Of a stretch of DNA of 39,158 bases, positions 5,065-26,473 are shown piece by piece. A program made the position numbers and the translations under genes. The notes beneath the pieces are model-generated. The model was not told the origin of the DNA, did no database searches, and worked only from the letters and a program-made list of their open reading frames with translations. Every line of letters starts with the position of its first letter. Within the stretch, counting starts at the first letter, position 1. Source of the stretch: Lysobacteraceae bacterium (GTDB lineage: Bacteria; Pseudomonadota; Gammaproteobacteria; Xanthomonadales; Xanthomonadaceae); the NCBI GenBank assembly GCA_003241895.1, contig QBLY01000024.1, positions 1-39,158 on the forward strand, read 5' to 3'.

Positions 5065-5115
5065 CCCACTTTTTCGGGAGGGGTCAGAACCCTGTCCCAG
5101 TTATCGGAATCACGA

Positions 5116-6129
5116 ATGAAAGTCTTGGTCACCGGCACCGCTGGGTTCATCGGCTCCCACCTCGCCATCCGCCTGCTTGAGCGGGGCGACGAAGTGGTGG
5201 GCTTCGACAACATGAGCGATTACTACGACGTTAACCTGAAGAAGGCGCGCCTGGACCGCTTCATGGACGACCCGAACAACACCCATATCGAAGCCGACCT
5301 GGCCGACTGCGTTGCGGTGGAAGCGGCGTTCGCCGCGCACAAGCCGCAGCGCGTGGTGAACTTGGCTGCGCAGGCGGGCTCGCTATGCGGCCGAAAACCC
5401 GCACGTGTACGTCAGCAGCAACGTCACCGGCTTCCTGCACATATTGGAGGGCTGCCGCCACCATGGCGTGGAGCACCTAGTGTTCGCGTCCACCAGTTCG
5501 GTGTACGGCACCAATCTCAAGATGCCATTCCCCGAGCACCAGCCGCCCGAGCAACCGCTGACGCTTCATGCAGCCAAGAAAAAAACGCGGAAGAGGATAG
5601 CGCACAGCTACGCGAACCTCTACGGCATTCCGTGTACCGGGCTGCGGTTCTTCACGGATTATGGCGTATGGGGCCGCCCAGACATGGCGCTGTTCCTGTT
5701 CACCAAGGCGATCCTGGCGGGCAGCCCATTAAGGTGTTCAACCATGGCAAGCACAAGCGCAGCTTCACTTACGTGGATGACATCGTGGAAGGCGTGATCC
5801 GCACGCTGGACCAGCCAGCGACGGCGAATTCCGAATGGGAGGGAATGGCGTCGGATCCGGCGACCAGCAATGCCCAGTACCGAATCTTCAATATCGGGAG
5901 TGAACGGCCGGTGGAGCTGCTGCGCTACATCGAGGTGCTGGCGCACCGCTTGGGCAAGAAGGCCGCGATGGAGATGTTGCCGCTGCAGGCGGGGGATGTG
6001 CCGGATACCGAGGCGGATTTGTCGGTCCTGATCGAGAGCGTTGGCTACCGGCCTATCGTGTGGGTGGAAGAAGGGATGAGGAATTTCGTGCGGTGGTATC
6101 GGGATCATTATCAAGTCGTCGAAACATGA
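5116..6129 (+). pseudogene. Decayed UDP-glucuronate 4-epimerase-like gene with two compensating frameshifts
   Basis: The gene starts with an intact Rossmann motif (GTAGFIGSH) and ends with an intact C-terminus, but the middle is read out of frame. Next to the intact paralogue at 24732-25742, two bases are missing at about 5380 (GTG reduced to T) and one base at about 5723 (GAG reduced to AG). The losses sum to three, so the frame is restored and no stop interrupts it. Within the shifted stretch (about 340 bases) the correct protein is still legible in the other frame, including the motif [11 protein letters not shown]. There the catalytic Tyr of YxxxK has become His (codon 5567-5569), TKKANEQM has become KKKTRKRI, and VYGP has become DYGV. 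The product would not be a working SDR epimerase. Confidence 0.88.
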
Positions 6130-6164
6130 CTTAGCCGGTTTTGTTCCAATTTTCTTGGACAAAA

Positions 6165-7163
6165 ATGACCGAAGTTCGCAGTTGTGAAGAGACGGAGAGA
6201 ATAGTGTCTGATTCCATAAGCGCAACCATGAAGCAACGATGCCCCCTGTGTACGGCAACTGTAGCGGAAGAAATTGAAAGAATCCGTTTCGATGACATTT
6301 GGCAAGCGCTCGCAACCGGCTGGAGTGCTAGGTTCAGTAATGAGATCGTGGATCGGCATACCCCGAGCGCGGAGACGGCGCTGCATGAATGTCTGAAGTG
6401 CGGCTTGCAGTACTTTGCGCCAGCCTGTCCTGGTGATGATGATTTCTATCGCGAACTCACGACCACTTCTGCCAGCTATTACATTCAGGATAAATGGGAC
6501 TTTCAGGAGGCTGCGAAAGTCATCAGACCGGGCGACGTAGTGCTTGACATCGCCTGTGGCTCCGGGAATTTTTTAAAAATAATCGGTGCGAAGGTTTGCG
6601 AAGCAATAGGAATTGACACTAACCCGGCCGCCGTCAGCGCAGCGCGCAGCCAAGGACTATCCGCCCACTGCATTAATTTGGCCGATTACGCCGCCAGCAA
6701 CGTCGGGCGCTTCGACGTTGTTACCGCGTTTCAGGTTATCGAACACATTGCCGAGGTGCAGCCGTTCGTTCTCAGTGCGCTTGCGTGTTGCAAGCCCGGT
6801 GGCAAGCTGATTTTGACCGTCCCGAACCGCCTGCGTTTTTCTCGTGAAAAATTTGAACCGCTTGACTGTCCACCGCATCATCTTTCACGGTGGACGAGCG
6901 AGCAATTCCATTGGCTGGCAGAGTTCTTCGGCTGTCGGATCATTGATGTGAGATACGAGCCAGCCACTATGTACGACTACAGAACGTTTCTGCGTCACAA
7001 AATCGCTGGTGTGGGGAGGGCCGACTCGCTCTGGGCGCGGCTAATAGGGCGCATCATATTATCCCCCACGCTTTACTCTCTTTATCGTCGACACGACTGG
7101 CTCGGCCGTTGGCCTCTGTGGCGCATGAGTGTTATGTGCGTCCTTGAGAAGGCACATCAGTGA
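6165..7163 (+). CDS. Class I SAM-dependent methyltransferase with N-terminal zinc-ribbon-like motif
   Basis: The protein has two CxxC pairs near its start (CPLC, then ECLKCGLQYF about 50 residues later), typical of methyltransferases in sugar loci that carry a small N-terminal metal-binding module. The SAM-binding motif I follows as VLDIACGSGNFL, with the acidic motif II at GIDTN and the motif DVVTAFQVIEHI. A tail with aromatic and basic residues follows. The family methylates sugars or other small molecules; the acceptor here is unknown. The ATG at 6165 gives 332 residues. An internal ATG at 6228 begins MKQRCPLC, which is where relatives usually start, and is an equally good choice. This is the first gene of the lower-GC cassette. 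Its stop overlaps the flippase start by 4 bases. Confidence 0.82.
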   Translation: MTEVRSCEETERIVSDSISATMKQRCPLCTATVAEEIERIRFDDIWQALATGWSARFSNEIVDRHTPSAETALHECLKCGLQYFAPACPGDDDFYRELTTTSASYYIQDKWDFQEAAKVIRPGDVVLDIACGSGNFLKIIGAKVCEAIGIDTNPAAVSAARSQGLSAHCINLADYAASNVGRFDVVTAFQVIEHIAEVQPFVLSALACCKPGGKLILTVPNRLRFSREKFEPLDCPPHHLSRWTSEQFHWLAEFFGCRIIDVRYEPATMYDYRTFLRHKIAGVGRADSLWARLIGRIILSPTLYSLYRRHDWLGRWPLWRMSVMCVLEKAHQ

Positions 7164-8629
7164 CAAGCTCAGAAACGTCACTCGCGAAGCAAGTCATCGG
7201 CGGTACCGGTGTCATTACCGTCGCTGGCGTCGCGGCCAGACTACTTGCGTTGTTGACCGTGCCAATCTTGACCCGCTTGTTGGGCCCGGCCGCTTATGGT
7301 GTGGCAGCGCTCGTCGGCACAGTGATCGCGCTCGCTTCAGTTTTAGCGCTTCTGGGCATCGATATGGCCTATGCCCGTTTCTATTTGCAGGAGAAGGAAA
7401 GTCAGCGCGCTGCTGTTGAACGCTTTTGCTGGCGGTTTGCAGCGTCAGGTGCCATCGTCGTTGCATTGCTCACTGCCGGAGGATGGTATTGGCTTGGGGG
7501 GCGTTGGCTGGACGATCACCACAGTATCGCCGCATATTCTGTGCTCGCGATAGGTTTGTCGGTTGCGGTCGCCATGACGACCACGCGCATCCGGTTGCTC
7601 GGCAACTACCGACGTATTGCGGCCGCCCTCTTTCTGGCGTCCGTGGTCTCGGCGATAGTCAGCATTGGACTGGTTTTCCTTTGGCGGACGGATGTATGGG
7701 TGCTGCTCTTTGGGGCAATCGCGGCATCCATCACAACCCTGCTCGTCCTGGGCCTGCCATCGAGATCATTTTTCAAGCCTTCGCACTTGCCACGGAACAC
7801 CAAACGCGCTGTCGTCTCACTCGGTGTGGCCGGCAGCATCACCGCACCCATGTACTGGGTCATTTCCTCTTCCGACCGCTGGTTTCTTTCGTACTATATG
7901 GATGCAGGTGAAGTCGGTGTTTACTCCGTCGCAGCTACTGTCGCAATGCTTGGGCTCATGCTCAACAGCAGTCTGACGTTGACGTGGTTTCCGGAAGCCA
8001 GTCGTCTCTATGGGGAGCAGGGGGCGGAGTCGCTTCCGTCTCTAGGACGAATGTGGACACGCCTGGTAACTGGACTGGCTATTGTTTGGCTGGCCGTCGC
8101 GGCGGCAGGCGGCGACGTGTTGCGAATTTTGGCTGCGCCGGCATTTCACCCCGGCGCGCAGTACATACCCTGGCTTGCGGGCGGGGTGTTCTTCTACGGG
8201 CTCGCGTCCTTGGCAAACACCGCACTGTTCTTAACGGCCAAGATGCGTTTCGCAGCCTACATGTGGAGTGCGGGGGCGTTACTCAGTGCATGTCTCTATT
8301 TAGTCCTGATACCTTATCTCGGTGCTCTTGGCGCTGCCATCTCCCAGTGCATAAGTTTTAGTTTGACCGCCCTCGGCGTTCTTGCGGTTTCACATCGGCT
8401 TCTGCCACTACCAGTTCCTGTTTTTCGGCTGACTATCGCCTTGGCGATTACTGTTGGTGCAGGCGTCGTAATGGCGCCGGAATGGGCCGGCCAGCCGGTG
8501 TGGAGTCTGGTGCTCAAGTTCCCTGTGGGTCTTCTGGTTGCAGGGATTGTTTTTGTGGTGATTGCGCCGGACTGGTGCCGACGCACGTTTGCCGGTTTGC
8601 GTCGCGTATTTGTTAGTGCAAAAGCCTGA
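7160..8629 (+). CDS. wzx: Oligosaccharide flippase, Wzx/MATE-like
   Basis: This 489-residue protein is hydrophobic throughout with about 12-14 transmembrane segments. It has the opening typical of polysaccharide-biosynthesis flippases: a short polar start, then VAGVAARLLALLTVPILTRLLGPAAYGVAAL. A charged loop holds SSSDRWFLSYYMDAGEVGVYSVAATVAM, which matches the SDR-F-L-Y-G-YSVA pattern of Wzx family members. The family moves undecaprenyl-diphosphate-linked repeat units to the periplasmic face. The GTG at 7160 overlaps the methyltransferase stop (GTGA), so the genes are coupled. The symbol is by family and context; substrate specificity is not readable. Confidence 0.88.
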   Translation: MTSSETSLAKQVIGGTGVITVAGVAARLLALLTVPILTRLLGPAAYGVAALVGTVIALASVLALLGIDMAYARFYLQEKESQRAAVERFCWRFAASGAIVVALLTAGGWYWLGGRWLDDHHSIAAYSVLAIGLSVAVAMTTTRIRLLGNYRRIAAALFLASVVSAIVSIGLVFLWRTDVWVLLFGAIAASITTLLVLGLPSRSFFKPSHLPRNTKRAVVSLGVAGSITAPMYWVISSSDRWFLSYYMDAGEVGVYSVAATVAMLGLMLNSSLTLTWFPEASRLYGEQGAESLPSLGRMWTRLVTGLAIVWLAVAAAGGDVLRILAAPAFHPGAQYIPWLAGGVFFYGLASLANTALFLTAKMRFAAYMWSAGALLSACLYLVLIPYLGALGAAISQCISFSLTALGVLAVSHRLLPLPVPVFRLTIALAITVGAGVVMAPEWAGQPVWSLVLKFPVGLLVAGIVFVVIAPDWCRRTFAGLRRVFVSAKA

Positions 8630-8850
8630 TGTGCGCGCTACGTATGCTTTCATCGAGTTTATATTTTAGACAGTGCGTGGGTGCTGAGTGCCAGACACAC
8701 ATTACACAGTCGGTTTGGCGAACAAGCTAAATACATGTTGGCCTTGCGCGCGCAGTTATTTTGGCTGGAGTTTGATCGTTTCGAAAAATCAGGCGCCTTC
8801 CCGATAGCTGTTATTGTGTCGGCAGGAAAACCCAAGGCGGGTCGATAAGC
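8630..8850 (+). other. Gap between flippase and asparagine synthase genes, open in the flippase frame
   Basis: These 221 bases hold no recognised gene. The flippase frame, after its TGA at 8627-8629, stays free of stops for 72 codons, to a TAA at 8846-8848. The translated stretch has no recognisable motif; its only ATG (8735) would give a 37-residue peptide. It may be a relic of a former gene or chance. TATATT at 8660-8665 is a possible -10 element, but I see no matching -35. No terminator is visible. Confidence 0.3.
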
Positions 8851-10731
8851 ATGTGTGGCATTGCAGGACATATTAGTTTTCAGCGGCCACCTGAAGCCGC
8901 AACGGTTGCGGAGATGGTGCGGCGGATTCGCCATCGGGGGCCGGACGATCGTGGACTTTGGCCGTCACCCAAGGGCGAATGCGTTCTCGGCCATGCCCGG
9001 TTGAGCATTATTGATCTCAGTCCGCTGGGTCATCAGCCGATGCTGGACCCCGAAACCGGCAATTGCATCGTCTTCAACGGCGAGATCTACAACTTCCAGG
9101 CCTTGCGCCGGGAGTGCGAAGCGGCCGGTGACCGATTCCGTTCCCAATCCGATACCGAGGTTATCCTCGCCCTTTACCGGCGCCACGGGGTGCATTGCCT
9201 GCAAAAGTTGCGCGGCATGTTCGCATTTGCCTTATGGGACGAGTCACGTAAGCGGGTGTTCTTCGCCCGTGACCGGGTGGGCAAGAAACCGCTCAATTAC
9301 GCCCTGGTTGATGGCGGAATTGTTTTTTGCTCAGAAATCGACCCGCTTGCCCGGCATCCGGACGTCTCGCGCGACATGGACATTGAAGCGCTGGAACTGT
9401 ACCTGCAGTGCCAGTACATCCCGGCCCCATGGACCATCTATCAACAAATCCGCAAGCTGCCCCCCGCCCACTATGGGTTGCTGGATCGTGATGGCTTCAG
9501 AATCGAGCAGTACTGGAATGTGGATTACACCAACAAGGTGCGTATTTCCGAGCAGGACGCTCTCGATGGCCTGGAAGAGAAACTGACCGAGGCGGTGCGG
9601 CTGCGCATGATTACCGATGTGCCGCTTGGCGCGCTGCTCAGCGGCGGGGTGGACAGCAGCATCGTCGTCGCGCTGATGGCCAAGCTGAGCGGCCAGCCGG
9701 TGCGTACCTTCAGCATCGGCTTTCGGGAGGAGGCATTCAACGAGTTGCCCTTCGCACAACAAGCCGCCGATATCTGCGGTACCGCTCATCATCCGGAAAT
9801 TGTTGAGGACGATGTGGCGCATTTGTTGCCGCGGATGGCGCAGCATTATGGCGAGCCCTTTGGTGATTCCTCGGCCGTCCCCTCCTTCTTTGTCTGCCAG
9901 GCAGCGCGCCGCCATGTGACGGTCGCGATGAACGGCGATGGAGGGGATGAGCTACTCGGTGGTTACTCGCGCTATTTGCTGTCGCCAGCGAAAATGCGCA
10001 TGGCGGCAGCTATACCGGATGTCTTTTCGGCGTCGCAACTCACCGCGCTGGCCACCCGCCTTGCCGCTGTAACCAGCATTCCGGCGCGGGTCATCCGCAA
10101 GCTGGTAACCGAGTTTGGATGGCCCGAACTACGCTCCGTCAATATGTACAGCGGGTTCTGGGATGACCGCATCCGTTCGCGTTTGCTGCGGATGAAGGGC
10201 GGGGCAGACTTGTTGCCGCGATGGCGCACCACATGGCTGAAAGGTGCCATGGCGCATGCCGATAGTCCGGTCGACCGCATGCTCTGGTATGACAACCGCA
10301 CCTATTTGCCGGGGGACTTACTGGTCAAGATGGACATCGCTTCCATGCACTGTGGCCTGGAAACTCGTTCCCCGCTTCTTGACCATGAGGTTATTGAGTA
10401 CTGCGCGGCGCTTCCGGTGCGCTATAAAGTGAACAATGGCGCCGGCAAGTATTTGCTCAAGAAGCTAACCGAGCGTTATTTCCCTCGTGAGTTCGTTCAT
10501 CGCCGAAAGATGGGCTTTGGCATTCCGGTCGCCGGATGGCTGCGCGGGCCGCTGCGTCCCCTGCTGGAGGACACCCTGCGCAGTGCTCAGGCGATGGAGC
10601 CGCTGGACCGATCCGTGATTGACCACACGTTGGACGAGTTCCTGAATCACGGTGTTGATCACAGTTCTCGGCTTTGGGCGCTCTTGATGTATGGCGCCTG
10701 GCGTCGTCATACCATGGCAGTGCAGGCATGA
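8851..10731 (+). CDS. asnB: Asparagine synthase-type glutamine-dependent amidotransferase (first copy)
   Basis: This 626-residue protein has the class II glutaminase domain with the N-terminal nucleophile Cys2 (MCGIAGH), the RHRGPDDRG motif, FNGEIYNF and the SDTEV segment. The ATP-pyrophosphatase (synthetase) domain follows, with the PP-loop SGGVDS at residues 264-269 and the NGDGGDELLGGY motif. Glutamine ammonia would be transferred to an ATP-activated carboxylate. In polysaccharide loci such proteins may amidate a sugar uronic acid rather than aspartate; P. aeruginosa WbpS, placed in GalNAcA amidation, is the precedent I have in mind. A uronate-forming TviB enzyme is in the same locus. The stop overlaps the next ATG (ATGA). 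A second, different copy sits at 16734-18536. Confidence 0.88.
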   Translation: MCGIAGHISFQRPPEAATVAEMVRRIRHRGPDDRGLWPSPKGECVLGHARLSIIDLSPLGHQPMLDPETGNCIVFNGEIYNFQALRRECEAAGDRFRSQSDTEVILALYRRHGVHCLQKLRGMFAFALWDESRKRVFFARDRVGKKPLNYALVDGGIVFCSEIDPLARHPDVSRDMDIEALELYLQCQYIPAPWTIYQQIRKLPPAHYGLLDRDGFRIEQYWNVDYTNKVRISEQDALDGLEEKLTEAVRLRMITDVPLGALLSGGVDSSIVVALMAKLSGQPVRTFSIGFREEAFNELPFAQQAADICGTAHHPEIVEDDVAHLLPRMAQHYGEPFGDSSAVPSFFVCQAARRHVTVAMNGDGGDELLGGYSRYLLSPAKMRMAAAIPDVFSASQLTALATRLAAVTSIPARVIRKLVTEFGWPELRSVNMYSGFWDDRIRSRLLRMKGGADLLPRWRTTWLKGAMAHADSPVDRMLWYDNRTYLPGDLLVKMDIASMHCGLETRSPLLDHEVIEYCAALPVRYKVNNGAGKYLLKKLTERYFPREFVHRRKMGFGIPVAGWLRGPLRPLLEDTLRSAQAMEPLDRSVIDHTLDEFLNHGVDHSSRLWALLMYGAWRRHTMAVQA

Positions 10732-11894
10732 CCCGCTCTGTTCTGATGTTCTGCCCTCAGTTTCGGCCCATAGTCGGCGGTGCGGAACGACAGGCGGAGA
10801 AACTCTCCAAGGCGCTGGTGCAGAAGGGAGTGAGGGTAGCGGTGTTGACGCCGCAGTTTGTTGCCGGGACCCCGGCGTATGAAGAAGACGCGGGCGTGGC
10901 GATTCACCGCTTCCCGTTGTTTGATCTGTGCAAACGGTTCCCGCGGGTACGCGGGCTGGGGCCATTGAATCTATTGCTGATCCGCGCCCAGGTGATTCGT
11001 GCGATGAACCGGCATCTGCAAGGCGTGGATGTGGTGCATACGCACATTGCCTCGCCGATGACTGCTTTTGCAATGCAGGCGGCCAAGCGACGGCAGGTGC
11101 CAACGCTGTGCAAGGTGGCCATGGCAGGAGTCAAATCAGATCTTAGCGAACTAACTGCGATCGGCTCGGGAGGTCGCTGGCTAGGTAGTGTCATGATCAA
11201 GCGCCTAGACCGCTGGGTTGCCACCACGCAGGCGGTCGCCGACACTCTTCTTGAATGGCATGTGCCGCCTGAACGAATCACTTGCATACCCAATGGCGTA
11301 GATTTGCCCGTACTGAACCGTCATTCCCCAAAGTCAGGCGCTGCAAGACGGTTTCTGTACTTGGGGCGATTGTCCGTGACTGCTCAGCGCGATGTGGGCG
11401 CTTTGATACGCGCCTTCGACCGACTGGCGGCCCAGTCGCCCGAAGTCGAGCTGGCCCTGGTGGGGGACGGCGATCTTTACCAGGGAACGGCCGACCTCGT
11501 TTCCAAATGCCGCCATCGCGACCGCATCCAGTTGCCCGGCCTGCAAGACCCGGAACGTTGGTTGCGCTGGGCGGATTGCTTTGTGTTGCCGTCGCGGCGT
11601 GAGGGGCTTTCCAACGCGCTGCTTGAGGCGATGGCACAAGGATTGCCCTGCATTGCCAACGACATTCCGCCCAACCGCGAAGTCCTAGCCGATGGTGCAG
11701 CGGGTGTGTTGGTACCGGTAGGTGATGAAGCGCAACTGTTTGAGGCAATTCGGCGTATGGCTAACGATGCAGCTCATGTCCATGCTATGCGGATTGCTGC
11801 CTTTGGCCGCGTCCGCGCACAATACGGAATCGAGTTCGTTGCAAGTCGCTACGTAGCGTTATATGAAGAGATCATCAGGAATACAGCCCAGTGA
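10728..11894 (+). CDS. Glycosyltransferase family 4
   Basis: This 388-residue GT-B enzyme has an N-terminal acceptor domain beginning VLMFCPQFRPIVGGAERQ and a C-terminal nucleotide-sugar domain with CIPNGVDL, LYLGRLS and the retaining-enzyme EX7E motif within PSRREGLSNALLEAM. Family GT4 enzymes transfer a sugar from a nucleotide donor with retention, on the cytoplasmic face. The ATG at 10728 was chosen because it overlaps the asparagine-synthase stop; a longer in-frame reading from 10674 would eat into that gene. Its opening is very like both halves of the fused GT at 14300-16729, so the three domains may share a recent origin. Donor and acceptor are unknown. Confidence 0.9.
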   Translation: MTRSVLMFCPQFRPIVGGAERQAEKLSKALVQKGVRVAVLTPQFVAGTPAYEEDAGVAIHRFPLFDLCKRFPRVRGLGPLNLLLIRAQVIRAMNRHLQGVDVVHTHIASPMTAFAMQAAKRRQVPTLCKVAMAGVKSDLSELTAIGSGGRWLGSVMIKRLDRWVATTQAVADTLLEWHVPPERITCIPNGVDLPVLNRHSPKSGAARRFLYLGRLSVTAQRDVGALIRAFDRLAAQSPEVELALVGDGDLYQGTADLVSKCRHRDRIQLPGLQDPERWLRWADCFVLPSRREGLSNALLEAMAQGLPCIANDIPPNREVLADGAAGVLVPVGDEAQLFEAIRRMANDAAHVHAMRIAAFGRVRAQYGIEFVASRYVALYEEIIRNTAQ

Positions 11895-11906
11895 TAGACA
11901 CGGATC

Positions 11907-12062
11907 ATGCTGTGGTGCGCGACCAAAGGAAGCGATTTGCATTTTAGTCGGATGCTGTCGGGAGGGAGTGGTGCATTGGAAGGGTTCCCGCCAGAAATAG
12001 GCTGGCTGAATCCCATCTTTCATGCCCGGCGCGTCTCGTCAAGGAAACTTCAATCAATATGA
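11907..12062 (+). CDS. Possible small ORF filling the gap between GT and methyltransferase genes
   Basis: A 51-codon frame runs from ATG 11907 to a TGA at 12060-12062 that overlaps the start codon of the next gene (ATATGA). The peptide is not recognised: it is Gly/Ser-rich in the first half and basic at the end. There is no convincing ribosome binding site. The overlapping stop and the fact that it spans most of the 164-base gap make it slightly better than chance. It could equally be the tail of a lost gene. Confidence 0.2.
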   Translation: MLWCATKGSDLHFSRMLSGGSGALEGFPPEIGWLNPIFHARRVSSRKLQSI

Positions 12063-12985
12063 ACACGAAGAGACCCATACGCTTCTTGTGGCGCTTCTCC
12101 CGGAACCTGCTTTGCCTGACCCCCATAGGCCGGCGCTTGCTGTTCCCAACCGATGCGCTTGCCGCGCGCTTTGGGCGCGGTGATGCCGATTATGCCTGGA
12201 GCGTGTTTTCCCATCACCGTGCGGAGTTGGATGCGGCGGGGTTTAAAGCGGCTGATCGCATCCTGGAAATCGGTCCGGGAAGAAATCTCGGCACGGCGTT
12301 GCTCTGGTGGGCGCTACTCAGTTCCGGTAACGAGAACAATCTTATAGAAATCGTTTGTTGGGATGTATTCAAGAATGTGAAACCTGAAACGGATGGCTTT
12401 TGGGTGGAACTTGCACAGGCCTTGCTCGCAAAACCGATCGAGACATTCACAGGGGCGGATATGTCCCGTATACAGCAGCGATTGCGTGACGTGGCTGAGG
12501 GCCGTGCGTTTCCTAACATTTCCTATCGTGTCGAGCCGCTGGTGGAGCTTGAGGCTTCCATGGCCCCCGCGGGGCATGCCTTTGACCTCATATATAGCCA
12601 GGCAGCCATTGAGCACATTTGGCATATCGATGCATTCTGGAATGCCATGGGGCGGCTTACTACCTCAAACGGCTGGCATAGCCACCGCATTGATCTGGCC
12701 GATCACGGCCGGCGCGAGTCCAACTACATTGAAATGCTGGAATGGTCCCATTTAGGTTACTGGCTCACGATGCGCTTCATCCCAGGAGCGATCAACCGCT
12801 GGCGTGCGTGCCATCATCTGGAGAAAATGGCGGCGTTAGGGATGAGAATTCGGGCACAGAAACGCAGCCTGCGTGATCAGCTACCTATCCAGCTCTCTCA
12901 ACTGACGGCTGGGTTTAGGGAGTTAGGTGAAGCTGAACTGCGCACCACCGCTTTGGATGTCGTGGCCATCAGGGACTTGCGATAG
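12059..12985 (+). CDS. Putative SAM-dependent methyltransferase
   Basis: The 308-residue protein carries a methyltransferase motif I variant, RILEIGPGRNLGTALL (about residues 66-80), and a downstream motif FDLIYSQAAIEHIWHIDAFW (about 178-197) that fits the motif IV/post-IV region of class I methyltransferases. The C-terminal part is helical and basic with no further motif I can name. A ribosome binding site AAGGAA lies 8 bases before the ATG at 12059. Three bases separate its stop from the next gene, so it is in the same operon. The acceptor is unknown; a methyl cap or O-methyl group on the repeat unit is plausible from context. Confidence 0.7.
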   Translation: MNTKRPIRFLWRFSRNLLCLTPIGRRLLFPTDALAARFGRGDADYAWSVFSHHRAELDAAGFKAADRILEIGPGRNLGTALLWWALLSSGNENNLIEIVCWDVFKNVKPETDGFWVELAQALLAKPIETFTGADMSRIQQRLRDVAEGRAFPNISYRVEPLVELEASMAPAGHAFDLIYSQAAIEHIWHIDAFWNAMGRLTTSNGWHSHRIDLADHGRRESNYIEMLEWSHLGYWLTMRFIPGAINRWRACHHLEKMAALGMRIRAQKRSLRDQLPIQLSQLTAGFRELGEAELRTTALDVVAIRDLR

Positions 12986-12988
12986 CAA

Positions 12989-14296: not shown

Positions 14297-14299
14297 TCG

Positions 14300-16729: not shown

Positions 16730-16733
16730 CCAA

Positions 16734-18536: not shown

Positions 18537-18648
18537 GAATGAGAAATAAGCAAGTGATACCGTGCCTCAACCTGCTAGCTGCGTTGTGCGTCCTCGTCCT
18601 GAGGAATACCGCAGACTCGCCATCGATGGATTGGAGTGCCTAGGGATT

Positions 18649-19905
18649 ATGCGGCCAATAGTTCTTACGTTCGTTCGCTACTACCTCCCTGGGTTTCGCG
18701 CTGGAGGGCCAATTCGCACCATCGCGAACATGGTCGAGGAACTTGGCGACGAAGTTGAGTTCCGAATAGTCGCTTTGGACCGCGATATGGGTGACGCATC
18801 ACCATACTCAGGGGTCAAGTACGGCGAATGGACTCCTCTTGGCAAGGCGTATATCCGCCATGTATTGCCTTCGACCTTTGGCATGTCCGAAGTTTCCAAG
18901 ATAGCTCGTTCAACGCCGCATGATGTTGTCTACCTGAACAGTTTGTTCTGCCCGCGCTTTACACAGCAAGTGCTGATAAATCGGCGCCTTGGGCAATTGC
19001 CCTCGCGCCCGGTCATACTTGCCCCGCGCGGCGAGTTCTCGGAGGGAGCGTTGCAACTCAAGCGGCTAAAGAAGCAGGCTTTTATGCGATTTGCCAGGCT
19101 GTTTGGCCTATACGACGATCTGATCTGGCAGGCGTCGAGCGAATTTGAGGCCGCGGACATTCATCGTGCATTCCCAGTTGGCCCACAGAGCAGCGTTGGT
19201 GGTCGAATTGTTGTCACCGGCCACGTAAGTATCGCATCGGACTTGATTAGCGGCGACTACGGTACGGCAGAAGTGGAAGAACGTCCTAGAGGAAGTTCCG
19301 CTGGCGGTCCGCTTCGGGTTTGCTTTCTCTCGCGCGTTAGTCCGAAGAAGAACCTAGACTATGCGCTACGCGTGCTTGCGCAGGTTCGTGCTCCCGTGCA
19401 TTTTTCCATCTTCGGGCCGGCCGAGGACGCGGCGTATTGGGCCCACTGCCAAGCGCTGATTGCGGCTTTGCCGCCGCATATTGCAGTCACATACGAAGGC
19501 GCGGTCGAACATACGGAGGTGGTGGCGACGCTCGCCCGGCAGGACCTATTCCTATTCCCAACCCGCGGCGAAAATTTCGGGCACGTCATCCATGAGGCGC
19601 TGCGTGCTTGTCTGCCCATACTGATCAGCGACCAGACGCCTTGGCGGCAGCTTGAAGAACAGGGGGTGGGTTGGGATCTGCCTCTTGCTGACCTGGATTC
19701 GTTCGCACGTCGAATAGACGAGGTCGCCGGATGGTCCGCGCAGGAATTTGGTCTTGCTCGGGCGTGTGCCCGCGCCTTAGCAAGACGGATCGCGGACGAC
19801 CCGGCCATCATTGAAGCCAACCGCCGCCTTTTTTTAGATGCAATTCAAAATAGTGCGTGCGAGTCGGCGCGTGCTGCAACGGTTCAAGGGGACAAGCATG
19901 TTTGA
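18649..19905 (+). CDS. Glycosyltransferase, GT4-like
   Basis: The 418-residue protein opens with VLTFVRYYLPGFRAGGPIRTI, the sugar-acceptor loop of a GT-B subgroup common in polysaccharide loci (the pattern YLPGFRAGGP.RS/TI). The C-terminal half has VCFLSRVSPKKNLDYAL and the EX7E motif in PTRGENFGHVIHEAL, followed by LPILISDQTPWRQL. The ATG at 18649 is preceded by TAGGGAT and places this conserved opening at the N-terminus; a GTG at 18562 would add 29 residues without similarity. The gene's end overlaps the next start by 8 bases. The DQTPWR motif is typical of this subgroup; donor and linkage are unknown. Confidence 0.87.
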   Translation: MRPIVLTFVRYYLPGFRAGGPIRTIANMVEELGDEVEFRIVALDRDMGDASPYSGVKYGEWTPLGKAYIRHVLPSTFGMSEVSKIARSTPHDVVYLNSLFCPRFTQQVLINRRLGQLPSRPVILAPRGEFSEGALQLKRLKKQAFMRFARLFGLYDDLIWQASSEFEAADIHRAFPVGPQSSVGGRIVVTGHVSIASDLISGDYGTAEVEERPRGSSAGGPLRVCFLSRVSPKKNLDYALRVLAQVRAPVHFSIFGPAEDAAYWAHCQALIAALPPHIAVTYEGAVEHTEVVATLARQDLFLFPTRGENFGHVIHEALRACLPILISDQTPWRQLEEQGVGWDLPLADLDSFARRIDEVAGWSAQEFGLARACARALARRIADDPAIIEANRRLFLDAIQNSACESARAATVQGDKHV

Positions 19906-20932
19906 CGACAAAGTTCTGCTTATCACCGGCGGCACCGGCTCTTTTGGCAATGCCGTTTTGCGCCGGTTCCTTCGGACTGGCGTGCGTGAAGTTCGCATCT
20001 TCAGCCGAGACGAGAAGAAGCAGGATGATATGCGCAAGCGGTATGACAGCAGCAAGGTCAAGTTCCACATTGGCGACGTGCGCGATCCTAGTGCCGTTCT
20101 CGATGTCACTCGCGGCGTAGATTACATCTTCCATGCCGCTGCCTTAAAGCAAGTGCCATCCTGCGAATTCCACCCGATGGAAGCGGTCAAGACCAATGTC
20201 ATCGGTACGGAGAATGTTCTTGAGGCTGCCATCCAAGCGGGCGTGCGCAAGGTGATTTGCCTCAGCACAGACAAAGCTGTCTATCCGATAAACGCGATGG
20301 GCATTTCCAAGGCGATGATGGAGAAGGTGTTCGTGGCGAAATCGCGTAGTGCTAACCCGGCGCGCACCACGATCTGCGGGACGCGATACGGCAATGTCAT
20401 GGCCTCGCGTGGCTCGGTCATCCCGCTGTTTGTAGAGCAGATTCAGGGGGGCAGGCCTCTCACCATTACCGATGCGGCGATGACACGCTTCATGATGACG
20501 CTTGATGACGCAGTCGATTTGGTGCTTTATGCGTTTGAACACGGTGCCAACGGGGACATCTTCGTGCAGAAGGCGCCGGCCGCGACCTTGGGCGTGCTTG
20601 CGGTTGCGCTGTTTGCCTTGTTGGGAAAGCCCGAGCACCCGATCAACATCATCGGGACCCGCCACGGCGAGAAGCTACATGAAGCTCTGCTCAGCCGCGA
20701 AGAAATGGCCCACGCTGAGGACTTGGGGGGCTACTACCGCGTGCAGCCCGACTTGCGGGATTTGAACTATGGTAAGTACTACGAGGTTGGCGAACACAAG
20801 ATAAGTGAGGCTCTTGACTACACCTCCGAAAGTACCGAGCGCCTCGACGTCGCTGGTATGAAGGACCTTTTGCTGAAGCTCGACTTCATTAAAGCGCTTG
20901 TGGAGGGACGGCCAGCAATGCCGGTCGACTGA
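19898..20932 (+). CDS. fnlA: UDP-GlcNAc 4,6-dehydratase/5-epimerase, FnlA/WbjB/CapE type
   Basis: This 344-residue short-chain dehydrogenase-type enzyme has TGGTGSFG (residues 10-17) for NAD(P) binding and KQVPSCEFHPMEAVKTNVIGT, a hallmark of the FlaA1/CapE/WbjB group. In place of the usual YxxxK it has MxxxK at Met134 and Lys138, the variant known for CapE of S. aureus. These enzymes convert UDP-GlcNAc to UDP-2-acetamido-2,6-dideoxy-beta-L-arabino-4-hexulose and related keto sugars, the first step toward UDP-L-FucNAc or UDP-L-QuiNAc. The ATG at 19898 has CAAGGGG upstream and gives the expected N-terminus. The next gene starts 2 bases after its stop. Confidence 0.92.
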   Translation: MFDDKVLLITGGTGSFGNAVLRRFLRTGVREVRIFSRDEKKQDDMRKRYDSSKVKFHIGDVRDPSAVLDVTRGVDYIFHAAALKQVPSCEFHPMEAVKTNVIGTENVLEAAIQAGVRKVICLSTDKAVYPINAMGISKAMMEKVFVAKSRSANPARTTICGTRYGNVMASRGSVIPLFVEQIQGGRPLTITDAAMTRFMMTLDDAVDLVLYAFEHGANGDIFVQKAPAATLGVLAVALFALLGKPEHPINIIGTRHGEKLHEALLSREEMAHAEDLGGYYRVQPDLRDLNYGKYYEVGEHKISEALDYTSESTERLDVAGMKDLLLKLDFIKALVEGRPAMPVD

Positions 20933-20934
20933 TC

Positions 20935-21813
20935 ATGAAGATATTGGTCCTAGGTGCAGACGGAATGCTAGGTCATCAATTGGTGGCGAGCTATCGGGGG
21001 CGTCATCAGGTCTACGGTACGGTTCGTAACTCGCTCGCTGCGTATGGGGCGGGTTCGGATCACATGCCGCCCGTCCTCCTTTCGGAGGTCGATGCCAAAA
21101 ACGTGATTGGTGTGGCAGATGCAATTGACCAGATATCTCCAGATGCCGTGGTGAATGCGATAGGGATTGTCAAGCAGCGCGATGACGCTAAGAGTGCCAT
21201 TGAGAGCATTGAAGTGAACTCGCTTTTTCCTCATCGCCTTTCTGAAATGTGTATAAAAAGAGGTGTTCGGTTGGTTCATATGAGTACTGACTGCGTTTTT
21301 TCCGGAGACACAGGTGGCTATCAAGACAACGATTTTGCCGACGCCAGGGACCTCTATGGGCGCAGCAAGTATATGGGAGAGGTTTGCGGAGACGGCGTTA
21401 TTACGCTTCGCACATCCATAATCGGGCTTGAGTTGAATAGGAAGAAGAGTCTGATCGAGTGGTTTCTCGCCCAGACAGGCGTGATCCGCGGATATCGGAA
21501 GGCGATCTACTCCGGTTTCACGACGTTGGAGATGGCGCGGATTATCGAGAGCCTGCTCAAAGGAGCGCCTGCGCAGGGAGTTTTCAACGTCAGTAGCGAG
21601 CCAGTAGACAAGTTTAGTCTATTGTGTGGTCTTCGAGATCGGCTTGTCAGAAATATTGAGATCGTCCCGGACGACGAGTTTGTCTGCGATCGCAGTTTGG
21701 ACTCTACGAAGTTCCGGCAAGCCTTCAGTTATATGCCGCCTCGGTGGTCGGTAATGCTCGATGAACTCGCGGCGCAGATACGTGTTCGAGATGGCGTTGA
21801 GGTCGGATCATGA
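20935..21813 (+). CDS. RmlD-like reductase in the FnlB/WbjC position
   Basis: The 292-residue protein is an RmlD-type SDR: NAD(P) motif GADGMLGH (residues 7-14), NAIGIVKQ, VHMSTDCVFSG and the catalytic pair Tyr141/Lys145 (YGRSK). It sits between fnlA and fnlC, where E. coli O26 and P. aeruginosa O11 carry FnlB/WbjC. As I recall, FnlB/WbjC is about 370 residues and bears an extra C-terminal cupin domain, absent here. The shorter form matches the WbvR/QnlA-type reductases of UDP-L-RhaNAc/UDP-L-QuiNAc pathways. It would reduce the 4-keto intermediate made by FnlA. The start ATG lies 2 bases after fnlA; its stop overlaps fnlC (ATGA). Confidence 0.85.
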   Translation: MKILVLGADGMLGHQLVASYRGRHQVYGTVRNSLAAYGAGSDHMPPVLLSEVDAKNVIGVADAIDQISPDAVVNAIGIVKQRDDAKSAIESIEVNSLFPHRLSEMCIKRGVRLVHMSTDCVFSGDTGGYQDNDFADARDLYGRSKYMGEVCGDGVITLRTSIIGLELNRKKSLIEWFLAQTGVIRGYRKAIYSGFTTLEMARIIESLLKGAPAQGVFNVSSEPVDKFSLLCGLRDRLVRNIEIVPDDEFVCDRSLDSTKFRQAFSYMPPRWSVMLDELAAQIRVRDGVEVGS

Positions 21814-22940
21814 GACGTTTGAAAGTTGTAACGATTGTGGGCACGCGTCCGGAAATTATCCGTTTGTCCCGGGTCATTGCTGCATTGGACACCCATTGCG
21901 ATCATGTATTGATCCACACCGGGCAGAACTACGATTACGAGCTTAACGGTATTTTCTTCGACGATCTGGGTATACGGAGGCCCGATCGATTCCTTCAGGC
22001 GGCCGGCGCCACTGGCGCGGAAACCATTGGCAACGTAATCATCACCGCTGCCCAAGCGCTTTCCGAGATTCAGCCGGACGCAGTATTGGTGTTGGGAGAC
22101 ACCAACAGTTGCTTGGCCGTTATTCCGGCGAAGCGCCTCAGGATTCCTACGTTTCATATGGAAGCGGGCAATCGCTGCTTCGATATGCGTGTCCCTGAGG
22201 AGATTAATCGCCGAATCATTGATCACACGGCAGACATAAACCTGCCGTATAGCGATATTGCGCGCGGACACCTACTTGCAGAGGGCCTGCCTTCCGATCG
22301 GATTATCAAGACCGGAAGCCCTATGCTTGAGGTCTTGGCCTACTATGCTGAAGGAATCGCTGCTTCCGATGTGCTTGGTCGTTTGGAGTTGCGTGTCGGG
22401 GAGTACTTTGTGGTCAGTGCGCACCGGGAAGAGAATATCGACTCTGATAAAAATTTTGCAGGCCTCGTGGATGTTCTCAATACCGTGGCGACCAAATATG
22501 CATGCCCGGTGATTGTGTCCGCACACCCTCGAACTAGGAGACGAATAGATGAAATGGGCGTGTCTCTCGACCCTAGGGTGAGACTGCTAAAGCCACTTGG
22601 TTTCAATGACTATGTACGACTTCAGGTGGATGCGAAGGCGACCCTGTCGGATAGTGGAACAATCAGCGAGGAGTCATCCATTCTGAACTTCCGCGCCCTG
22701 AACCTGCGCGACGCCCACGAACGCCCGGAAGGCATGGAAGAGGGCGCCGTGATGATGGTCGGCATGAACCCGGAGCGGGTAATGCAGGGCTTGGCCATCC
22801 TGGAGAGCCAGCCCACCGGTGCGGTACGCGGCCTGCGCCAAGTGGCCGACTACAGCATGCCCAACGTTTCTGAAAAGGTGGTTCGCATCATCCACAGCTA
22901 CGTGGACTATGTGAACCGAGTGGTCTGGAAGAAGTACTGA
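21810..22940 (+). CDS. fnlC: UDP-N-acetyl sugar 2-epimerase, FnlC/WbjD type
   Basis: The 376-residue protein is a non-hydrolysing UDP-GlcNAc 2-epimerase family member: TIVGTRPEIIRL (residues 8-19), HTGQNYD, VLGDTNS, HMEAGNRCFD, PEEINRR, SAHREEN and the C-terminal SDSGTISEES signature. The N-R-C-F-D variant after HMEAG is typical of the WbjD/FnlC branch rather than WecB. It would epimerise C2 of the 6-deoxy-L-HexNAc made by the two upstream enzymes, giving UDP-L-FucNAc or UDP-L-QuiNAc. Codon use changes sharply at about 22680: upstream is mixed with many A/T third positions, downstream is almost all G/C at third positions like the host genes. The reading frame is intact across the switch. Confidence 0.92.
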   Translation: MRRLKVVTIVGTRPEIIRLSRVIAALDTHCDHVLIHTGQNYDYELNGIFFDDLGIRRPDRFLQAAGATGAETIGNVIITAAQALSEIQPDAVLVLGDTNSCLAVIPAKRLRIPTFHMEAGNRCFDMRVPEEINRRIIDHTADINLPYSDIARGHLLAEGLPSDRIIKTGSPMLEVLAYYAEGIAASDVLGRLELRVGEYFVVSAHREENIDSDKNFAGLVDVLNTVATKYACPVIVSAHPRTRRRIDEMGVSLDPRVRLLKPLGFNDYVRLQVDAKATLSDSGTISEESSILNFRALNLRDAHERPEGMEEGAVMMVGMNPERVMQGLAILESQPTGAVRGLRQVADYSMPNVSEKVVRIIHSYVDYVNRVVWKKY

Positions 22941-22957
22941 GCCCGGGAAGGCCATCG

Positions 22958-24151
22958 GTGGGCATGACGATCCTGGTGGTGATGGACGTGTACGTTCCGT
23001 CCCGTATTTCCGCAGCCCTGCTGATGCGTGATTTCGTGCTTGAGCTGCGCGAACAGGGCCACACCCCCGTGGTGCTGGTGCCCAGCGAGGGCCTGGACAA
23101 GCCCGTACTGGTTGAAGTGCTGGACGGCACCCCCGTAATTCGGGTCGCGGCACCGCGCACCAAGGACGTGGGCAAGGTTCGGCGCGCCCTGGCGGAGTGG
23201 TGGCTGCCCAGGGCCCTGCTTCGCGGCCTGGCACGCAGCCCCTATGCCAACCAGGTTTGGGACGGCGTGGTCTGGTATTCACCCACCATCTTCCTGGCGC
23301 CCTTGGTCCAGTCCATCAAACAGCGCCATGGTTGCCGCAGCTATCTGATCCTTCGCGACCTGTTTCCCGATTGGGCGCTGGATGCGGGCGTGCTGCGCGA
23401 CGGGCCGATCTATCGCTACTTCAAGCGGGTAGAGCGCGCGCAATACACGGTGGCCGATGTGATCGGTGTCCAGACGCCGGCCAACGCGCCGCTGGTCCGT
23501 CGGGACGCCCCAGCGGATACCCCCATCGAAGTGCTCAATAACTGGATGGCCAAGCCCGCCCCGGGACCGGGTTCGATCGCGCTGGCAGACGGCCCGTTGG
23601 CTGGCCGCACGATCTTCGCTTACACCGGCAACATGGGGGCCGCCCAGGGTATGGATGCCTTGCTGGATCTGGCGGTTTCCCTCCGTGATCGGCGCGACAT
23701 CGGGTTTTTGTTCGTCGGGCGCGGGACCGATTTGCCTGTGTTGAAGTCCCGGGCAAGTTCGCTTGAACTGGACAACGTCCACTTCATCGATGAAGTGGAT
23801 TCAGCCAAAATCCCTGGCCTGCTGGCGCAGTGCCACGTGGGCCTGATCGCGCTGGACCCGCGGCACCGCACGCACAATATCCCGGGCAAGCTCATCACCT
23901 ACCTGCACGCCGGCCTGCCGGTGCTGGCGCGCATCAACCCGGGGAACGACCTGCAGGCGCTCATCGACGGGGAAGACATCGGCTTCGTGGTGGCCGGTGA
24001 TGATCCCGAGGCCTTGCGTCGCCATGCGCTGGCGCTGGCGGACGACGCGCCGCTGCGCAGCCGCCAGGGCGAGAAAGGCCGCGAGGTGGCCGTAAGATGG
24101 TTCTCGCCGCAGGCGGCGGCCAGCCAGGTCGTGAGGGGGCTGCGCGCTTGA
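22958..24151 (+). CDS. wbuB: Glycosyltransferase family 4, WbuB-like (6-deoxy-L-HexNAc transferase)
   Basis: This 397-residue GT-B enzyme has the opening ILVVMDVYVPSRISAALLMRD, the LRDLFPDWALDAGVL segment with a conserved D-F-P-W pattern, IFAYTGNMGAAQGMD and the C-terminal IPGKLITYLHAGLPVLARI. These are shared by WbuB-type enzymes, which transfer L-FucNAc (or L-QuiNAc) to the undecaprenyl-linked acceptor. It directly follows fnlC, as in E. coli O26, where the order fnlA-fnlB-fnlC-wbuB-wbuC is known. GTG at 22958 is preceded by GGGAAGG at 6 bases; ATG at 22964 is the alternative. Its base composition is host-like, unlike the cassette to its left. Confidence 0.85.
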   Translation: MGMTILVVMDVYVPSRISAALLMRDFVLELREQGHTPVVLVPSEGLDKPVLVEVLDGTPVIRVAAPRTKDVGKVRRALAEWWLPRALLRGLARSPYANQVWDGVVWYSPTIFLAPLVQSIKQRHGCRSYLILRDLFPDWALDAGVLRDGPIYRYFKRVERAQYTVADVIGVQTPANAPLVRRDAPADTPIEVLNNWMAKPAPGPGSIALADGPLAGRTIFAYTGNMGAAQGMDALLDLAVSLRDRRDIGFLFVGRGTDLPVLKSRASSLELDNVHFIDEVDSAKIPGLLAQCHVGLIALDPRHRTHNIPGKLITYLHAGLPVLARINPGNDLQALIDGEDIGFVVAGDDPEALRRHALALADDAPLRSRQGEKGREVAVRWFSPQAAASQVVRGLRA

Positions 24152-24176
24152 AGCGGATATCAAACGGGAACTGGCC

Positions 24177-24686
24177 ATGAATCCATCGGACAACGTGCGG
24201 GTGATCTCCCCGGATTTTCTTGATCGCCTGACCTCGCAGGCGGTTGCGTCACCGCGCCAACGCCAGCACTACAACCTGCACGCCACCTACGACGATCCCT
24301 GCCAGCGTTTTTTCAATGCCGTCGAACCCGGCAGCTACCTCCGGCCGCACCGGCAGGCGCTGATCCCTCGCAGCAAGCTGCTGGTGGCGGTGCGCGGGCG
24401 CTTTGCGCTGTTGGTGTTCGACGATGCCGGCGGCATCGTGCAGGGGGTGCGGTTCGCAGCAGGCGAGTTGCCTGGTTGGGCCGTCGCTGCGGAGGTACCG
24501 GCCGGGCGCTGGAACACCGTGCTTTCGCTGTCGCCAGGCGCCGTGCTTCTGGAGGCCAAGGCCGGCCCCTTCGATCCGGACGCACCGCGTGAGCCCGCGC
24601 CGTGGGCGCCGGAAGAGGGCGGACCGGACGTGGCGGCCTACATGGCGTGGCTGTTCGATGCCGCCGCCAAGCTGCCGCTGGGCTGA
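24177..24686 (+). CDS. wbuC: WbuC-family cupin protein
   Basis: The 169-residue protein follows wbuB, as wbuC does in E. coli O26. It has the cupin-like core with RQHYNLHATYDDPCQRFFNAVEPGSYLRPHRQ, where the histidines in NLH and PHR would be metal ligands, and then a strand-rich stretch with RGRFALLVFDDAGG. WbuC proteins are small cupin-fold putative metalloproteins whose exact reaction is, to my knowledge, not settled; a role in L-FucNAc-type sugar handling is inferred from constant linkage with wbuB. The gene starts 25 bases after wbuB and 45 bases before the intact epimerase. Confidence 0.82.
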   Translation: MNPSDNVRVISPDFLDRLTSQAVASPRQRQHYNLHATYDDPCQRFFNAVEPGSYLRPHRQALIPRSKLLVAVRGRFALLVFDDAGGIVQGVRFAAGELPGWAVAAEVPAGRWNTVLSLSPGAVLLEAKAGPFDPDAPREPAPWAPEEGGPDVAAYMAWLFDAAAKLPLG

Positions 24687-24731
24687 CCAGAGCCGCTAAA
24701 CTGCTCGTGTCCTGTACCGGTCTTGAAACCC

Positions 24732-25742
24732 ATGCGCATCCTCGTCACCGGCTCCGCCGGCTTCATCGGCTCCCACGTCGCCCAGGTCCTGCTGGCCCGC
24801 GGTGACGAGGTCATCGGCTTCGACAACCTCAACGACTACTACGACCCCACCCTGAAGCACGCCCGTCTGGCGCGGCTGCAGGCGCTGCCGGGCTACACGC
24901 ACATCACGGCCGATCTGGCCGATCGGGCGTCAGTGGAATCAGCGTTCGCAACCTACAGGCCGCAGCGCGTGGTGAACCTGGCCGCCCAGGCCGGCGTGCG
25001 CTACGCCGCCGAGAACCCGCACGTATACGTGGCCAGCAACGTCACCGGCTTCCTGCACGTGCTCGAGGGCTGTCGCCACCACGGCGTCGAGCACCTGGTC
25101 TATGCCTCCACCAGTTCGGTATACGGCGCCAACCTGGCCATGCCGTTCTCCGAACATTCCTCCGCCGAGCACCCGCTCACCCTGTACGCGGCCACCAAAA
25201 AGGCCAACGAACAGATGGCGCACAGCTACGCCCATCTTTACGGCATTCCGTGCACGGGCCTGCGCTTCTTCACCGTGTACGGCCCCTGGGGCCGGCCGGA
25301 CATGGCGCTGTTCCTGTTCACCAAGGCCATCCTGGCGGGCGAGCCGATCAAGGTGTTCAACCACGGCAAGCACAAGCGCAGCTTCACCTACGTGGACGAC
25401 ATCGTGCAGGGCGTGGTGCATACGCTGGACACCATTCCGGGCAAGGACCCTGCCTGGAACGGCTTGACACCCGACCCGGCCACCAGCGGCGTGGCGCCTT
25501 ACCGCATCTTCAACATCGGCAACGAACAGCCGGTGGAGCTGCTGCGCTACATCGAAGTGCTGGAACAGTGCCTGGGCAAGAAAGCCGTCATGGAAATGCT
25601 GCCCCTGCAGGCCGGCGACGTGCCCGACACCGAGGCCGATGTGTCCGACCTCATCGCCCAGGTCGGCTACCGGCCGGTGGTGCAGGTGGAAGAGGGTGTG
25701 GCCAATTTCGTGGCTTGGTATCGCGGGTACTACGGCGTTTGA
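24732..25742 (+). CDS. UDP-glucuronate 4-epimerase-like NAD-dependent epimerase, intact copy
   Basis: This 336-residue extended SDR has the NAD motif [23 protein letters not shown], the catalytic Tyr152/Lys156 (YAATK), [14 protein letters not shown] and [18 protein letters not shown], all characteristic of UDP-glucuronate 4-epimerases of the LspL/Cap1J type. It would interconvert UDP-GlcA and UDP-GalA, or related uronic acid nucleotides such as the product of the TviB enzyme. The ATG at 24732 fits the NAD motif. It is the complete form of the decayed gene at 5116-6129, in the same orientation 19.6 kb downstream. Confidence 0.9.
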
Positions 25743-25840: not shown

Positions 25841-26473
25841 TCGAACAATATCCCCGGTTCGGGCGTGGACTGTTCGCGCTTCAGCGCGCGCACCGGCGCG
25901 CGCGATCCGTCACAGCCACTGCGCGTGCTGCTGGCCGCGCGCCTGCTGTGGGACAAGGGCATCGCTGAGTACATAGCTGCCGCGCGGCAGCTGCTTGGCG
26001 AAGGCCGCGCCATTCGCTTCCTTTTGGCTGGTGACCCGGACCCTGGCAACCCCGCCGCGGTACCCGAGGCCACGGTGCGCGCCTAGGCGGACGAGGGCGT
26101 GGTGGACTGGCTGGGGCACGTGGACGATATGCCGGGCTTGTTTGCGACCGTAGACATCGTGGTGTTGCCCAGCTATCGGGAAGGTTTGCCCAAGGGACTG
26201 ATCGAAGCGGCGGCCTGCGCGCTTCCGTTGGTCACCACCGATGTCCCTGGCTGTCGCGAAGTGGTATTGGACGGGGTGGATGGCTTGCTTGTTGCCGTCC
26301 GTGATGCGCCTGCCTTGGCCAGCGCCATCGCGCGGCTGCAGGACGACCCGGCCTTGGCTCGTCGGCTGGGCGACGCGGCGCGTACGAAGGCGCTGGCGCA
26401 GTTCGACGAGCGTGTGGTTATCCGGGATACCTTGGCGGTGTATCGGGAGCTGCTGGGTTCGCCTGAGCGGTGA
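25841..26473 (+). pseudogene. N-terminally truncated GT4 glycosyltransferase with internal stop
   Basis: The legible protein starts near IPGSGVDCSRF, which in GT4 enzymes is the loop at the beginning of the C-terminal domain, so the whole acceptor domain is missing. Upstream of 25841 the frame is closed by TGA. The rest follows the family: LRVLLAARLLWDKGIAEY, FLLAGDPDPGN, then an in-frame TAG at 26084-26086 where a Trp codon (TGG) is likely, followed by VVDWLGHVDDMPGLF and an intact EX7E motif in YREGLPKGLIEAAACALP. The remaining sequence shows good codon bias, so the damage looks recent. Its stop overlaps the VanZ-like start (GTGA), preserving the old operon layout. Confidence 0.87.

Follow-up and report, generated by a model that had tools for sequence, protein, structure and literature searches.

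The window analysed here is the whole of contig C16 (39,158 bases) of the 3.10-Mb draft genome of a Lysobacteraceae bacterium (genome G000). One run of genes in this window holds a flippase, glycosyltransferases and sugar-nucleotide genes together, which matches a Wzx/Wzy-type surface-polysaccharide locus (Table 1). Two epimerase genes, copy A (5116-6129) and copy B (24732-25742), lie in this locus in the same orientation with 18.6 kb between them, and the origin of this pair and of the cassette enclosed by it is the subject of this report. For comparison, a genus set of 27 genomes, presumably Arenimonas (the source genome and 26 others, all G-numbered), and a family set of 395 genomes were searched. 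Domain evidence was taken from Pfam and from NCBIfam curated models with their cut-offs.

The two epimerase genes and the cassette between them

The reading frame of copy B is open over its full length. Its product matches PF01370 (6.2e-57); no NCBIfam model was above its cut-off among the best 25 of 37 matches listed, and the TviC model gave 99 bits with a cut-off of 760. The closest solved chain is 5u4q (442.6 bits), named dTDP-glucose 4,6-dehydratase by its depositors, and the pairing of B with a TviB-type dehydrogenase suggests a UDP-uronic acid as substrate. When the source assembly was searched with the DNA of B, two long matches, A and B themselves, and a third of 33 bp were obtained. 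Copy A carries frame-shifting deletions and substitutions described below, and the statement in the earlier note that an intact and a decayed copy lie here in the same orientation was thereby confirmed.

Between A and B, 752 of 988 aligned columns are identical (76% at nucleotide (nt) level), and the longest exact runs common to both have 29, 27, 25, 23 and 19 bp. In a maximum-likelihood DNA tree with 88 rows, A clusters with the TviB-adjacent epimerases of G017 and G023 (support 100/99), the G023 row being of half length because its contig ends at that point. B belongs to a clade of eight rows (B, G003, G015, G008, G006, G014, G001 and G010; support 100/85). Clade alternatives were judged by the approximately unbiased (AU) test, which rejected a single A+B clade (p 0.0002) and also a position of A within the B clade (p 0.003). 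The nearest full-length relative of A is the G017 gene with 85.4% nt identity, all others among the best 26 rows reaching at most 79.1%, and the G023 gene, of half length, agrees with A in 86% of 499 columns. B has nt identities of 89.7% to G015, 89.2% to G001 and 89.0% to G006. The type of epimerase does not follow the species: in a gyrB tree (with a partial gene for G017), G000 and G015 are sisters (100/99), then joined by G023 (100/100), and G017 is sister to G008 (100/100), whereas type A is found in G017 and G023, type B in G008 and G015, and both types in G000. As judged from their identity, the epimerase tree and the AU test, A and B are genes of different lineages and not a duplication.

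TviB is present in 19 of the 27 genus genomes (E 1e-60, source genome counted). In eight of them (G004, G008, G009, G011, G017, G020, G021 and G023) the gene right after TviB is an epimerase. In five (G001, G003, G006, G010 and G014) TviB is separated from B by 14.1-27.8 kb of the same contig, and in G015 the two genes are on separate contigs. TviB alone stands between the usual flanks in G005 and G026, and other gene orders are found in G002 and G007. The order TviB, broken A, cassette, B occurs in the window only.

The GC content of positions 6141-22940 is 56.9%, compared with 69.1% in the left flank, 60.7% in copy A, 66.2% in wbuB, 68.6% in wbuC, 65.5% in B and 66.9% in the right flank. The lower-GC cassette of the earlier note is thus present but shorter than described, since the block ends at about 22.94 kb and the bracketed wbuB, wbuC and B have host-like GC. 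Therefore, the putative import looks composite. Genes next to B in G015 are related to the right end of the cassette (FnlA 80%, FnlC 86%, asparagine-synthase gene 69% and WbuB 56% amino acid (aa) identity), so part of this end is common with the sister species. The first cassette methyltransferase matched only the source genome itself among the 395 family genomes (E 1e-30), and a donor for the cassette as a whole was not found. Names at the right end follow the order fnlA-fnlB-fnlC-wbuB-wbuC, which is that of UDP-L-FucNAc modules; the name WbuB is taken from this gene order. The frame at 14300-16729 has two family 4 glycosyltransferases fused within 809 aa. In G023, a Glycos_transf_4 gene (WecA-like, below the NCBIfam cut-off), a Poly_export gene and a Wzz gene lie left of the TPR gene, and the window contig ends before that point.

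Table 1. Features of the surface-polysaccharide locus in window coordinates, with the evidence for each (nt and aa, nucleotide and amino acid identity).
Feature	Position	Strand	Evidence
TPR-repeat protein, conserved left part	402..1655	+	gene order kept in relatives; PrsT matched weakly, under its cut-off
O-antigen ligase/Wzy_C-domain membrane protein, conserved left part	2414..3778	+	PF04932 3.4e-16; 88% aa G015, 70% aa G017
TviB-type UDP-sugar dehydrogenase, left border of variable part, G017-like allele	3787..5064	+	NF011729 653.7 bits, cut-off 592
Copy A, decayed epimerase, left scar, putative native type	5116..6129	+	tree; two frame-shifting deletions; 15/317 sites
Methyltransferase, first gene of putatively imported cassette	6222..7163	+	PF13489
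Wzx-type flippase	7160..8629	+	PF01943, PF13440
Asparagine synthase-like amidotransferase	8851..10731	+	PF00733, PF13522
Family 4 glycosyltransferase	10737..11894	+	PF13692
Probable methyltransferase (by eye)	12059..12985	+	0 Pfam families
Multi-pass membrane protein (by eye), candidate Wzy polymerase by position	12989..14296	+	0 Pfam, 0 NCBIfam matches
Tandem two-domain glycosyltransferase, 809 aa	14300..16729	+	PF13692 and PF00534, two stretches each
Second asparagine synthase-like gene	16737..18536	+	PF00733; 69% aa G015
Glycosyltransferase	18562..19905	+	PF00534
FnlA-like UDP-GlcNAc 4,6-dehydratase/5-epimerase	19895..20932	+	TIGR04130 622.7 bits, below cut-off 730; 80% aa G015
FnlB-like reductase, RmlD domain (name from gene order)	20935..21813	+	PF04321
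FnlC/WecB-type 2-epimerase, end of low-GC stretch	21810..22940	+	TIGR00236 212.5 bits, cut-off 210.15; 86% aa G015
WbuB-like glycosyltransferase	22958..24151	+	PF13692; 56% aa to B-adjacent gene in G015
WbuC-family cupin protein	24177..24686	+	TIGR04366 113.5 bits, cut-off 42
Copy B, intact epimerase, lineage of G015, G001, G003, G006, G008, G010, G014	24732..25742	+	tree 100/85; PF01370
Glycosyltransferase pseudogene, right scar, 3′ half only, internal TAG	25850..26473	+	78% nt to G017 C57
VanZ-family protein, glycosyltransferase partner	26470..26895	+	NF037970 above cut-off

Frame and centre of the locus

The locus of G017 was pieced together from two contigs, whose join was assumed. These contigs match the window DNA at 92-6074 and 25850-26463 with 78-86% nt identity. 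Between the two blocks, the only G017 match is that of B (24739-25720, 80%) to G017's own epimerase, and the cassette genes have at most 40% aa identity to the G017 stretches. TviB of the window is 89.9% (nt) and 91% (aa) identical to that of G017, compared with 81% aa identity to the sister species G015. Because G017 matches at both ends and, apart from B, not in the centre at DNA level, the frame is G017-like and the centre (cassette and B) foreign.

The right-hand block is a second pseudogene, located right of B outside the span of the earlier note and missed there. Its best relative among the loci compared is a 388-aa gene on C57 of G017, aligned over 615 columns from about residue 182 on, which is the last locus gene of G017 and lies about 0.25 kb from the chromosomal flank. 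We infer that the pseudogene is a remnant of an older cassette. On the B side, the window is homologous to G015 as far as 25764, which is 22 bp beyond the stop codon of B, although the G015 contig continues for another 217 bp. The VanZ family was detected in one of the 27 genus genomes (E 1e-8, source only) and in 12 of the 395 family genomes (E 1e-6, source included), and VanZ was therefore rejected as a conserved right chromosomal border. In 6 of 12 other family loci (L204, L205, L206, L208, L211 and, by position, L213) a relative of the glycosyltransferase precedes VanZ by no more than about 0.4 kb; in L212 the distance is about 1.2 kb.

From these data, we consider it probable that a Wzx/Wzy-type locus with a G017-like frame had its middle part of about 19-20 kb (about 6.1-25.8 kb) replaced by an import carrying sugar genes and epimerase B. 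The older frame would have consisted of TviB and epimerase A on the left and the glycosyltransferase-VanZ pair on the right, and the incoming segment (cassette and B) would have replaced an older G017-like cassette. By the arrival of B the native epimerase may have become redundant, and the decay of A would then have been tolerated. The left crossover may have fallen within the last ~100 bp of A, and the right junction (25764-25850), without visible homology, looks illegitimate.

In the earlier note, the two genes had been seen as what cassette replacement by homologous recombination leaves behind, and a low nucleotide identity of copies that group with different lineages had been named there as a result that would refute this. 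Exactly this result was obtained, with an identity of only 76% in the alignment and different lineages in the tree (AU p 0.0002), which tells against two equivalent repeats left by one recombination event. The interpretation of the note is thus supported in part. Replacement as such is well supported, more strongly than in the note, by the G017 matches on both sides of a foreign centre and by the other lineage of B: if a cassette arrives together with its own epimerase, two copies that differ in lineage are to be expected. In the comparison of layouts proposed in the note, these vary among the 19 TviB-bearing genomes, and the order TviB, broken A, cassette, B is unique to the window.

Several observations weigh against the replacement of the centre. 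The TPR-ligase part has an nt identity of 86% to G015 but only 78% to G017, with a switch to G017-like DNA at the border of ligase and TviB, and the sister species G015 has B together with a different TviB (81% aa). TviB-A could thus be the later arrival; polarity is not fixed, and the order in which frame and centre arrived is one that we infer. The TviB tree does not support a fork of G000 and G017 (value under 80), even though G017 has the highest identity. Over its final ~100 bp, A is only 64-72% identical to G017, and no clear donor for this tail was found. A scan for breaks in epimerase pairs, in which codon structure was ignored, puts a junction there, but in other pairs it gives breaks of the same strength at different places (nt 250 in B-G010, p 0.0005; nt 703 in G017-G009, p 0.0035). 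To these points are added the missing donor of the entire cassette and the assumed join of the two G017 contigs. Furthermore, the locus lies off the usual chromosomal site of the relatives, so other rearrangements occurred too.

The opposite order of events is rather unlikely. It would start from a resident locus of the G015 type (other TviB, cassette, B), in which a G017-like TviB-A fragment later replaced the left border and A decayed because B was already present. This would agree with the occurrence of B and of related right-end genes in G015 (FnlC 86%, FnlA 80% aa) and with the G015-like TPR-ligase part and its change to G017-like at TviB. However, the right pseudogene is also G017-like, which a left-only swap leaves unexplained, and the layout of G015 is unproven with its TviB and B on different contigs. 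The G017-like right border therefore favours the arrival of cassette and B in a G017-like frame.

That copy A is in fact intact and its frameshifts are assembly errors is very unlikely. Compared with the G017 gene, A has a 2-nt deletion at about nt 265 and a 1-nt deletion at about nt 610. Since both together remove 3 nt, the frame is restored after a shifted middle part and a misleading 337-aa open reading frame (ORF) was listed. This total of 3 nt would be in line with assembly errors, and the same holds for the differences between A and G017, which fall mostly on the third codon position (28/14/76 for positions 1/2/3) much as between working genes such as B and its G015 counterpart (23/10/72). 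On the other hand, the 88-row alignment has 317 sites at which the other rows do not vary; A is altered at 15 of these, and 14 of the 15 changes are at codon positions 1 or 2. For the 86 other rows scored, the median is 0, with high values in two divergent rows (G007, 15; G004, 8). In the shifted frame, the tyrosine of YxxxK, the motif with the catalytic tyrosine of the active site, is replaced by histidine (HAAKK; YAATK in B), and the end branch of A in the tree is 0.16 compared with 0.066 for G017. The substitutions at otherwise-invariant sites argue against the defects of A as a pure sequencing artefact, which was judged unlikely. From the predominance of third-position differences, the decay would be recent relative to the divergence of A and G017.

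It is highly improbable that the copies are an active direct repeat that mediates present-day loop-out or exchange of the cassette. Their direct orientation and the exact common runs of 29, 27 and 25 bp would allow this, but A and B are only 76% identical over 988 columns, the single assembly shows the cassette-bearing form only, and no hybrid A/B gene was noted among the tree rows, where none was specifically sought. Identity and separate lineages together remove the picture of two equivalent repeats from one event and make present-day loop-out unlikely; with 29 bp as the longest exact run, loop-out through A and B is poorly supported. Hardly credible is the duplication of one epimerase within the species with later decay of one copy, as the shared orientation and family and the decay of one copy are outweighed by the 76% identity, the separate clades and the AU test (p 0.0002), by which a duplication in place is refuted under the tree model used.

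Chromosomal site and epimerase 3′ ends in the genus

The left order of TPR protein, hypothetical protein, ligase and TviB is also found in G001, G003, G006, G009, G010, G014, G017 and G023 and on C94 of G015. In the eight relatives showing both neighbours on one contig (G001, G002, G003, G004, G005, G008, G010 and G026; elsewhere these are on different contigs), TviB has a manC block on one side and, on the other, a conserved gene that matches no Pfam family. In the source genome, these usual neighbours are contiguous without the locus (C1:4600-11640, L226), separated by no more than two genes, an FAD oxidase and a SerA-like gene, and the same FAD oxidase-SerA-manC run is present in G015 (C46:10146-15922). 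The right flank of the window is common only to C183 of G015 among the loci compared. Its gene at 36111-36782 is found in 27 of 27 genus genomes and is about 1.24 Mb away from TviB in the single-contig genome G003, for which reason this flank was rejected as the usual site of the locus. A PhyH-like gene proved misleading as an anchor, its neighbours being common only to G015. The locus has been relocated or regained elsewhere in the lineage of G000, perhaps also in that of G015.

Some further features of these loci were observed. Between ligase and TviB, G001 and G010 have a NusG/RfaH-like gene (recognized by eye from its N-terminus; L176:4409-4924 and L179:4521-5105), which is absent from the 8-bp gap in the window. 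At the same place, G015 has about 1 kb of extra DNA with a short ORF (L180:7009-7296), in which a TviB-like start is joined to a repeated ligase end. A repeat of about 70 bp with 86-99% identity, which looks like a REP-type element, is scattered in both orientations in G008 (for example C24:3616-3689, L030), G017 and G023, with one copy listed in G004. G020 has two full epimerases on different contigs (C26:1186-2190 and C113:55697-56695); the one on C113 adjoins a TviB fragment at the contig end and scores nearly as the G021 gene, and cross-contamination of the bin is possible.

A tentative idea is that the 3′ end of the epimerase gene might serve as a recurrent recombination port in Arenimonas, where crossovers in the last ~100-150 bp would leave decayed whole copies, C-terminal stubs and chimeric tails. 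The identity of A to G017 drops from about 87% to 64-72% over the last ~100 nt, and the best break, at which the difference rises from 13% to 36%, is at nt 907 (permutation p 0.0005). Among the 14 pairs scanned, the best break falls within 852-921 with p <0.05 in five (A-G017, B-G008, G015-G008, B-G003 and G011-G009) and lies elsewhere at this level in four (B-G010, G014-G006, G017-G009 and, with p 0.04998, B-G001), while the other five pairs have no significant break. As the pairs share members and codon structure was ignored, this clustering is suggestive only. C-terminal epimerase stubs are located 9.3 kb beyond B in G001 (L024:10498-10635) and 3.6 kb beyond B in G010 (L031:10440-10733). 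Their DNA matches start near nt 866 and 835, respectively, and they are most similar to the B of their own genome (94% and 96%). In G002, one locus (C2:437999-456423) contains three full epimerases in one orientation, which belong to two supported tree groups. Extra copies or stubs on the locus contig were found in 4 of at least 17 genomes with a close family member (at least 69% identity, among the matches listed). Should crossovers at the epimerase 3′ end prove to be common, this gene could help to locate cassette borders in related bacteria.

Comparison with known systems

The open-licence PMC papers found for polysaccharide gene clusters in Arenimonas named the genus only once each. By order and families, the right end of the cassette is like the fnlA-fnlB-fnlC-wbuB-wbuC modules, from which it differs by an FnlA score below the model cut-off (622.7 vs 730) and by epimerase B following it. 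Xanthomonas belongs to the same family as the source bacterium. A chimeric lipopolysaccharide (LPS) cluster of this genus, with one end as in a relative and the rest novel, was attributed to horizontal transfer (PMC2238763). That case concerns a different locus and different genes, and the part of the paper cited here describes no bracketing epimerase pair (PMC2238763). Among galactose-initiated O-antigen clusters of Salmonella, hybrids carry wzy remnants and a remnant element at their junctions, and group D2 was formed by recombination of D1 and E (PMC3715488). In the sections cited, the Salmonella remnants are those of a polymerase and an H-repeat element (PMC3715488), whereas the remnant in the window is an epimerase.

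There is a close likeness to the cps island of Neisseria meningitidis, which has an intact galE1 on one side and a truncated remnant, galE2, on the other, the latter being related to the galE of capsule-null strains (PMC5349592). For this island, illegitimate recombination into the native galE, by which it was captured en bloc, has been proposed (PMC5349592). In both loci, a polysaccharide island of lower GC is bracketed by two sugar-nucleotide epimerase genes, one intact and one broken (PMC5349592), and in the window, too, remnant A groups with epimerases of relatives without this cassette while the intact B does not. On the side of the differences, the copies in the window are direct, 76% identical and have 29 bp as their longest exact run, unlike the long near-identical repeats, which allow rearrangement, in the cited part of the meningococcal account (PMC5349592). 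The epimerase and the polysaccharide system are different as well, and the second scar of the window, in a glycosyltransferase gene, has no counterpart in that part of the account (PMC5349592). The window would thus be a clear new example of a known mode of surface-polysaccharide change and an independent parallel to the meningococcal case with direct, diverged copies. It would represent a clear intermediate of surface-polysaccharide replacement, in which the native epimerase is still readable and the imported one intact, and the relatives keep both parental types.

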